Part shown: piece after piece, positions 52,963-54,698 of the stretch
How positions within the stretch are numbered: position 1 is the stretch's first letter
Layout of the letters: each line of letters starts with the position of its first letter
Assembly (NCBI GenBank): GCA_017557625.1
Contig: JAFYYG010000022.1
Coordinates: 1-62,803 of the forward strand
Direction of reading: 5' to 3'
DNA length: 62,803 bases
DNA from: Muribaculaceae bacterium
GTDB lineage: Bacteria; Bacteroidota; Bacteroidia; Bacteroidales; Muribaculaceae
The notes under the pieces: model-generated
The model's database searches: none
What the model was told of the DNA's origin: nothing
The model's input: only the letters and a program-made list of their open reading frames with translations
Translations under genes and position numbers: made by a program

Positions 52963-54339
52963 TTATCCTAACCTGCGCAGTTTCACGGTGAAGTGGCGCA
53001 TCAATGGAGCTTCCCATTCGATGGCAACACCACGAGTGATCTCGTTGCGGCGGTCATAGACGTTCTTCAGGGCAGCCGCAATCACGTTCATGTGGTTGTC
53101 GGTGTAAACGCGGCGTGCTATGCACAGGCGCAGCAGGTCGAGACCACCAAAGCGGTTCTCTCGTGTCACAGGATCGCGGTCGGCGAGGATGTAGCCAATC
53201 TCGCAGCCACGGATGCCTGCCTCCAGGTAGAGCTCGCATGTGAGGGTCTGAGCTGGGAACTCTTCTTTTGGCACGTTGCACAACACCTTGTCTGCATCAA
53301 TAAAGAGGGCGTGACCACCCACTGGACGCTGGTAAGGAATGCCATACTCGTCGAGCTTGCTGGCGAGGTACTGCACCTGATGAATGCGGGTCTCGAGCAT
53401 ATCAAACTCGGTATTCTCGTCAAGACCTACCGCTAAAGCGTTCAAGTCGCGACCATTCAAGCCACCGTAGGTAAGGAATCCTTCAAAAGGAATGCAGTAT
53501 AGTTTTGCGCCTTCGTACCATTCCTCTTTGTTGGTAGCGATGAAACCACCCATATTCACGAGGCCATCCTTCTTGGCGCTCATGGTCATAGCGTCAACGT
53601 AGCTGTACATCTCGCGAGTTATCTCCTTGATGGTCTTGTTGGCATAGCCTTCCTCACGGGTCTTGATGAAATAGGCGTTCTCAGCAAAGCGGGCGCTATC
53701 CATCACAACAGGAACATTATACTTGTGGCACAGCTCGCAAGTCTCCTTGATGTTTTTCATCGAAACTGGCTGACCACCAACGGTATTATTGGTGACGGTA
53801 AGAACCATGAAAGGCACATTTCCCTCGTTCTCAACAAGCACTTTCTCAAGCTTCTCGAGCGACACATTGCCCTTGAAAGGAATCTCAAGTTGGGTGTCCT
53901 TAGCCTCATCGACAGTAACGTCGATAGCGGCAGCGTGACGGCTCTCAATGTGGCCCTTAGTAGTGTCGAAATGAGCGTTGCCAGGCACTACATTTCCCTC
54001 CTTAACCAGATAAGAGAACAGCACATTCTCAGCGGCGCGTCCCTGGTGTGTAGGGATGACATACTCGAAACCGAAAATGCGTTGAACAACCTCTTGGAAC
54101 TTATAGAACGAAGTGGCACCGGCATAACTCTCATCGCCGAGCATCAGTGCCGACCACTGGCGGTCGCTCATGGCACCGGTTCCCGAGTCGGTGAGACAAT
54201 CGATATACACCTGCTCAGCTTTTAGCATAAATACATTGTTGTTTGCTTCCTTGAGCCATTGCTCGCGCTGCTCGCGAGTACTTTTCTTCAAAGGCTCAAT
54301 CATCTTAATCTTCCACGATTCTGCAAATGGTAATTCCAT
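52963..54339 (-). CDS. tnaA: Tryptophanase
   Basis: 458 residues, normal length. The PLP enzyme splits tryptophan into indole, pyruvate and ammonia. Family signatures are LTDSGTGAMSDRQWSALMLGDESYAG, PTHQGRAAENVLF, TVTNNTVGGQPVSM, and the PLP-binding lysine in MSAKKDGLVNMGGF (about residue 255). The ATG at 54337-54339 gives MELPFAESWKIKMIEPL. Its promoter is about 270 bp upstream and the leader holds the 27-codon ORF at 54513-54596 that resembles TnaC, so regulation by ribosome arrest in response to tryptophan is plausible. Indole made by gut Bacteroidales affects host signalling. Confidence 0.97.
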   Translation of the reverse strand: MELPFAESWKIKMIEPLKKSTREQREQWLKEANNNVFMLKAEQVYIDCLTDSGTGAMSDRQWSALMLGDESYAGATSFYKFQEVVQRIFGFEYVIPTHQGRAAENVLFSYLVKEGNVVPGNAHFDTTKGHIESRHAAAIDVTVDEAKDTQLEIPFKGNVSLEKLEKVLVENEGNVPFMVLTVTNNTVGGQPVSMKNIKETCELCHKYNVPVVMDSARFAENAYFIKTREEGYANKTIKEITREMYSYVDAMTMSAKKDGLVNMGGFIATNKEEWYEGAKLYCIPFEGFLTYGGLNGRDLNALAVGLDENTEFDMLETRIHQVQYLASKLDEYGIPYQRPVGGHALFIDADKVLCNVPKEEFPAQTLTCELYLEAGIRGCEIGYILADRDPVTRENRFGGLDLLRLCIARRVYTDNHMNVIAAALKNVYDRRNEITRGVAIEWEAPLMRHFTVKLRRLG

Positions 54340-54512
54340 ATATATATTGTAATGTGACTATTTTGCTTTTGGGCTTAAAGTTTATTTTCATCAAAAAGAC
54401 ACAAGCCTATAAAAGCGAATTGTTGTTATATGTTTTCTTAAAAAAAGTGTATTGTATAAATATGTGGAAGGACAAGCACAAACAAATCATCCCTCCAACA
54501 TAATGGGGAGAG

Positions 54513-54596
54513 CTACTTGCAAAAATGGTCTATTTCTTTGATATTAAGAAATTTGCAAGAAATCAACGCAACATTTAATTGCCTCTCTTTTTTCAT
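54513..54596 (-). CDS. Putative TnaC-like leader peptide upstream of tnaA
   Basis: A 27-codon frame: ATG at 54594-54596, TAG at 54513-54515. It starts only about 12 nt after the predicted transcription start and lies 173 nt before tnaA on the same strand. The peptide begins MKKERQLNVALISC and continues KFLNIKEIDHFCK. The second half lines up with E. coli TnaC SKWFNIDNKIVDHRP: K, aromatic, N-I, K, I, D-H are shared in order. The critical Trp of TnaC is Phe here, and the terminal Pro is absent. The stretch after its stop is C/T-rich (CTCTCCCC and TGCTTGTCCTTCC), as expected for a Rho-loading site. Function is inference from position and similarity. Confidence 0.5.
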   Translation of the reverse strand: MKKERQLNVALISCKFLNIKEIDHFCK

Positions 54597-54614
54597 AATT
54601 GCTCTAATGTGGTG

Positions 54615-54622
54615 CAAAATTA
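54615..54622 (-). promoter_or_regulatory. Predicted promoter of tnaC-like ORF and tnaA
   Basis: CAAAATTA reads TAATTTTG on the minus strand, with a minus-strand TTG (CAA at 54643-54645) exactly 20 nt upstream. Predicted start near 54608, giving tnaA a leader of about 270 nt. Confidence 0.7.
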
Positions 54623-54698
54623 CGATATCTTTTATACATTTGCAACTTTGCATTTCATAAAAAGTGTTATCGATGCAAAAAAGTGAATTTAGCAAACA

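Follow-up and report, generated by a model that had tools for sequence, protein, structure and literature searches.

Short reading frames that end in a conserved core, [FY]xNIKxRDx[FY], stand directly ahead of many tryptophanase (tnaA) genes of the Bacteroidales. The core is conserved and selected at the protein level, the frames have a promoter box of their own and a consistent position, and they show a clear preference for tnaA and a few other catabolic genes. Taken as a whole, the explanation that such an ORF is a cis-acting leader, at which tryptophan-responsive arrest of the ribosome induces tnaA, likely via Rho, is considered likely; here, we infer the arrest, tryptophan as its signal, induction rather than repression and the participation of Rho.

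The leader and tnaA in the analyzed window

The window, i.e. the whole stretch of 62,803 nt that was analyzed, contains a leader ORF of 27 codons (MKKERQLNVALISCKFLNIKEIDHFCK, followed by a stop codon) on the minus strand (54596..54513), which appears in the ORF list and is kept in relatives. Comparison of leaders identifies FLNIKEIDHF (54522..54551, minus strand) as its conserved core and as a variant of [FY]xNIKxRDx[FY]. The downstream gene tnaA (52963..54339, minus strand; Pfam PF01212) encodes a product of 458 aa that matches the NCBIfam model NF053783.1 with 910.6 bits at a cut-off of 750, which identifies it as a tryptophanase. It is the single TnaA match in the genome assembly (88% complete), and its closest relatives, at 97% identity, stem from metagenome bins of Prevotellaceae, Muribaculaceae or Bacteroidales. 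A spacer of 173 nt (54340..54512, minus strand), pyrimidine-rich at its start, lies between the stop of the leader and the ATG of tnaA at 54339, and a small possible hairpin (CTCTCC with GGAGGG; 54489-54512, minus strand) followed by a T-rich stretch is located directly 3' of the leader stop. Upstream, the Bacteroidetes-type -7 box TAATTTTG (54622..54615, minus strand) ends 18 nt before the leader ATG, and the TTG of the -33 element (54645..54643, minus strand), which is kept in close relatives, lies 20 nt before this box. The 27-codon ORF ahead of tnaA, the consensus promoter with its TTG 20 nt upstream and the 173-nt distance had all been proposed in a first-pass annotation made from the sequence alone and were recovered as described.

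General annotation resources returned little for this region. The leader has no small-protein family match in NCBIfam or Pfam, a search of the window against Rfam at gathering scores gave nothing, and a sigma-70 scan of the window found no promoter, its consensus being different from that of Bacteroidetes promoters with their -7 box and -33 element. A terminator scan of the window flagged nothing on the leader/tnaA strand, but a rougher hairpin-plus-T rule did flag the hairpin after the leader stop. In the relatives L003 and L007, a hairpin of different sequence also seems possible at this position.

Conservation of the leader core

Tryptophanase loci were collected from two sources, namely 80 named tnaA loci and 129 others among the best 150 tnaA places from 393 Bacteroidales genomes; together with the window and 17 loci found by motif, and after removal of duplicates, they form a scored set of 220 loci. 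A loose core, defined as [FY]xN[ILV]KxRDx[FY] or a close variant within 330 nt upstream of tnaA, is present on the sense strand in 133/220 upstream regions, compared with 5/220 on the antisense strand, 1-5 per shuffle (ten shuffles, mean about 2.5) and 1/210 further upstream. The strict core occurs 96 times in the sense direction at the same 220 loci and is absent from antisense, shuffled and further upstream sequence. If the window and the 17 motif-found loci are left out, the loose core is still seen in 114/202. Short ORFs are common, with 104 of at least 20 aa overlapping a 6.5 kb stretch, which would speak for a chance ORF in the tnaA UTR. The counts for sense, antisense and shuffled sequence refute it, as do the order-wide matches to a profile of the core (178/393 genomes) and the codon-position bias described below, and the probability of a chance ORF is thereby reduced to almost nil. 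The ORF, its promoter and its spacing are beyond chance.

The occurrence of the leader is patchy. The core is present in 34 of the 80 named loci (32 with a narrower pattern) and in 89/129 loci of the order set, leaving 46/80 and 40/129 loci without it (one locus per set has little upstream DNA), and this absence at many tnaA loci counts against the best explanation. In a leaderless clade (L012, L013, L015, L017 and others of the 80 named loci), the tnaA promoter is located about 96 nt before the gene, and many members carry a palindrome such as GGCAAGTTGCC between the promoter elements. This palindrome is perhaps an operator that replaces the leader; the clade indicates that another control of tnaA exists.

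One of the 133 leaders (L140) looks false and was removed, resulting in 132 leaders for later counts. Pairwise comparison of these leaders gives mean differences at the three codon positions of 0.28/0.24/0.60 for the ten core codons and 0.69/0.68/0.73 for the ten codons before the core, while the spacer is flat at 0.72. Hence, only the C-terminal core is constrained as protein and the N-terminal half is unconstrained. The frame is thus under protein-level selection in the very stretch that the first-pass annotation had picked. The choice of loci by an amino-acid pattern biases the codon-position result, yet positions left free by the pattern show selection too. Here, a larger set of 182 leaders, composed of the 132 and 50 more, is informative: the seventh core position, free in the search pattern, is Arg in 154/182 leaders with all six Arg codons in use, and the tenth is Phe/Tyr in 176/179. 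The invariance of K and D arises partly by construction, since both are demanded by the search pattern. An RNA element in place of a peptide was considered and rejected, as the codon-position bias argues for protein and the window has no Rfam match.

Additional properties were recorded for the 182 leaders. Four residues follow the core D in 84 of them and two in 33, and the stop codon is TAA in 89, TAG in 49 and TGA in 44. In ten leaders, the core is not preceded by an ATG in frame and another start codon would be needed, which also counts against the best explanation. Arrest peptides typically combine a variable N-terminus with a conserved C-terminal stretch, and both features, together with a cis position before a gene, are found here.

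The promoter recurs with the leader. In 115/132 leaders, a TAnnTTTG box is found no more than 140 nt upstream of the core, where 14.8 would be expected from shuffles, and 69 of these 115 boxes are placed 65-73 nt upstream of it. Box and ATG are most often 18 nt apart, as they are in the window. A TTG is found 15-26 nt before the box in 62 of the 115 box-bearing leaders (raw count).

Distribution and target genes

The core profile spans 16 positions and was built from 68 leaders, the window peptide among them; the match of the window leader (28 bits, E 1.2e-5) is therefore that of a profile row. About 60 of the rows came from the Bacteroidales genomes that were then searched, so that some of the order-wide matches arise by construction; 105/182 leaders lie outside the profile rows. 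At E ≤ 0.02, the 178 matching Bacteroidales genomes contain one match each in all but six cases. In a phylum sample of 395 genomes, the same threshold yielded matches in five, the genome of the window included, and no convincing match was seen outside the Bacteroidales; the downstream ORFs listed for 17 loci of this sample include no tnaA. TnaA-like matches occur in 138/395 genomes of the phylum sample, many at only 45-52% identity, and these low-identity matches may perhaps represent other lyases.

Upstream regions were inspected for 13 TnaA-like loci of the phylum sample, one of which (L345, same class, another family) presents a possible variant: at -154..-109 upstream of its TnaA-like gene, the ORF MNKYILIKERDQFT is core-like with Leu for Asn and is a possible leader outside the Bacteroidales. 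Two further short ORFs were observed. In two genomes of one genus (L269 and L270), an antiporter-like gene is preceded, at a distance of about 250-280 nt, by a peptide with FKHIKNRDTFFH, which reflects either chance or another leader; similar weak profile matches came from other genomes of this genus. In one family (L337-L343), a conserved short ORF ending in FAVSGGVAGFHSD(D/E)N(I/V)FKAPE precedes TnaA-like genes and is perhaps the end of another gene.

Among the 150 profile matches listed, 143 are positioned just before tnaA, 89 of them within 400 nt before a listed tnaA and a further 10 and 44 found on inspection. The few targets other than tnaA are mostly genes of aromatic catabolism. In one genome (G090), the leader precedes an ADP-forming acyl-CoA-ligase-like gene (acs) that is followed by tnaA, and in three others (G306, G191, G089) it precedes acyl-CoA-ligase-like and fused indolepyruvate:ferredoxin-oxidoreductase-like genes (acs/iorAB). 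At another locus (G263, L327), a caprolactamase-like pair is followed by RidA-like, acyl-CoA-dehydrogenase-like and thiolase-like genes. The substrate names of the ior, acs and caprolactamase genes rest on similarity, as their scores are below the NCBIfam cut-offs. Homologs of caprolactamase include IaaCE, the proposed ring opener of 2-oxoindoleacetate (PMC8453981), and the L327 cluster could perhaps represent an indoleacetate-type route. Additionally, one leader has no clear target gene (G047) and one is followed by the end of its contig (G180); together with G263, these exceptions count against the best explanation. No TnaA match was listed for G306, G191, G089, G263 and G047, two of which are 88 and 79% complete.

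These targets bear on what the peptide may sense and on where it may act. The ior and acs families act on several aromatic acids and the core contains no Trp, both of which would fit an arrest that responds to something other than tryptophan, for example to an aromatic keto acid, to indole, to Phe/Tyr or to translation stress in general. However, the 143 of 150 listed matches that precede tnaA point to tryptophan, the characteristic substrate of its product, and E. coli TnaC, although another peptide, excludes indole and other amino acids according to PMC8429421; a signal other than tryptophan is therefore regarded as improbable. Protein-level selection on the core could also be explained by a small protein acting in trans, for example on TnaA, instead of a nascent chain. 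The unconstrained N-terminal half, ORFs as short as 14 codons and the cis position before the target in nearly all listed matches make this very doubtful.

Relation to TnaC and the proposed mechanism

The ORF in the window had been compared with TnaC on the grounds that its second half follows the order of residues in the E. coli peptide, with Phe replacing the key Trp. The two do share the position before tnaA and an aromatic-x-N-I string, and the pairwise score of 29 between the window peptide and TnaC is equalled by only 66/5000 shuffles; over all 182 leaders, the mean local score against TnaC is 18.6, compared with 15.8 for one shuffle each (means only). Against the leader profile, however, TnaC scores -3.3 bits, and 1661 of the 1731 shuffles reported (2000 were made) are equal or better, and a relation by sequence is not supported. 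The I-D-H likeness concerns a single clade: non-Arg forms at the seventh position are confined to 28/182 leaders, consisting of the window and 27 of the 80 named loci, and, judging from these leaders, the I is special to the clade of the window while R is general. Replacement of the key Trp by Phe depends on an insecure alignment. According to PMC8429421 and PMC10941005, TnaC holds L-Trp wedged between its Trp12 and the A752:U2609 pair of the 23S rRNA, and it loses function through changes at W12, D16 and P24. The leaders have no equivalent of the conserved Trp12, with F/Y at the first core position in 180/182, and contain Trp in their C-terminal part in 7/182 cases, all 182 carry Lys, which the pattern demands, at the position comparable to Asp16, and the last residue is Pro, as in TnaC Pro24, in 3/182. 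Membership in the TnaC family is not supported on these grounds, and a true but very diverged TnaC relative with Phe/Tyr for Trp12 is given little credence.

This leaves room for a mode of action like that of TnaC. The leader and TnaC are both short co-directional ORFs directly before tnaA with a conserved C-terminal part and a pyrimidine-rich spacer, and the catabolic target suggests induction by Trp in both. The 23S bases A752, U2609 and A2058 are the same as in E. coli in three leader-bearing genomes (23S gave no match in two further genomes queried, that of the window among them), indicating that the ribosomal half of such a Trp pocket is available. The leader is unlike TnaC in its core, in a stop position that is not fixed and in its occurrence before acs/ior-like genes. 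Classical trp/his attenuators, which combine runs of the regulated codon with a terminator/antiterminator pair, also place a leader ORF before a metabolic gene. Trp near the core in 7/182 leaders and the lack of a common terminator set the Bacteroidales leader apart from them, and a Trp-starvation attenuator was rejected because of the scarcity of Trp. SpeFL is not known to resemble the Bacteroidales leader in sequence. Its role as an ornithine-sensing arrest peptide, named in PMC8429421, resembles the one proposed here in that a nascent peptide senses a metabolite, while the ligand differs.

The catabolic target, the conserved C-terminal end, the few Trp codons and the shared aromatic targets lead to a Trp-sensing arrest peptide: the ORF is probably a leader of aromatic, mainly tryptophan, catabolism and a Trp-responsive ribosome arrest peptide working like TnaC. 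Judging from the box, transcription would start a few nt before the leader ATG. The C-terminal ten residues or so, [FY]xNIKx[R/I]Dx[FY], would then lie in the upper part of the exit tunnel, close to the peptidyl-transferase center, and abundant tryptophan would halt translation at the conserved final aromatic residue or directly after it. The number of residues between core and stop varies, unlike in an arrest fixed to the stop codon, and this suggests stalling close to the conserved DxF and not solely at termination. With the ribosome stalled, transcription could continue through the downstream part of the leader RNA, allowing tnaA or the equivalent catabolic operon to be made.

Coupling would be most likely achieved by blocking Rho and less likely by melting the weak hairpin just after the stop. 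The C/T-rich sequence after the leader stop, previously likened to a rut site, holds up as a trend, with a pyrimidine fraction of 0.60 in the first 36 spacer nt versus 0.49 in the UTRs of tnaA genes that have no leader (82 genes; p 3e-13). In E. coli, the tnaC spacer contains a rut site and is subject to Rho-dependent termination, and the pyrimidine-rich spacer fits Rho weakly. The 40/132 spacers of at most 70 nt are short for Rho loading plus termination, which counts against the best explanation. If coupling instead used intrinsic termination, the stalled ribosome would melt the hairpin just after the stop without Rho. The hairpin of the window with its T-rich tail is in line with this, and 18/178 spacers satisfy the hairpin-plus-T rule, but shuffles reach 12.8 (sd 3.1) and the terminator scan flagged none on this strand. 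A conserved spacer hairpin was rejected: the spacers do show a folding excess over shuffles, but control regions match it in folding z. Intrinsic termination is thus an unlikely route, and blocking of Rho is retained as the preferred one.

Indole affects both host and microbes, and we know of no account of the control of tnaA in Bacteroides. No Bacteroidales tnaA leader peptide is described in the titles and abstract openings of the literature searched, which comprised sources other than preprints and most subscription papers, and the core motif strings are absent from the same literature. PMC11306097 counts Bacteroides species among the indole producers of the gut and reports, for one species, a lower indole output than that of E. 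coli, as well as lower Bacteroides tnaA expression with pectin. On balance, it is slightly favored that the Bacteroidales evolved their own Trp-sensing nascent peptide (FLNIKxRDxF), independent of TnaC, as a portable module that serves tnaA and, elsewhere, an indolepyruvate oxidoreductase/acyl-CoA ligase route, perhaps also an indoleacetate-type cluster. If this independent sensing is true, the ribosome tunnel became a Trp sensor at least twice. A peptide that senses Trp would be a second, unrelated answer to the problem solved by TnaC, and the control of indole would become testable by point mutations in a core of ten residues.
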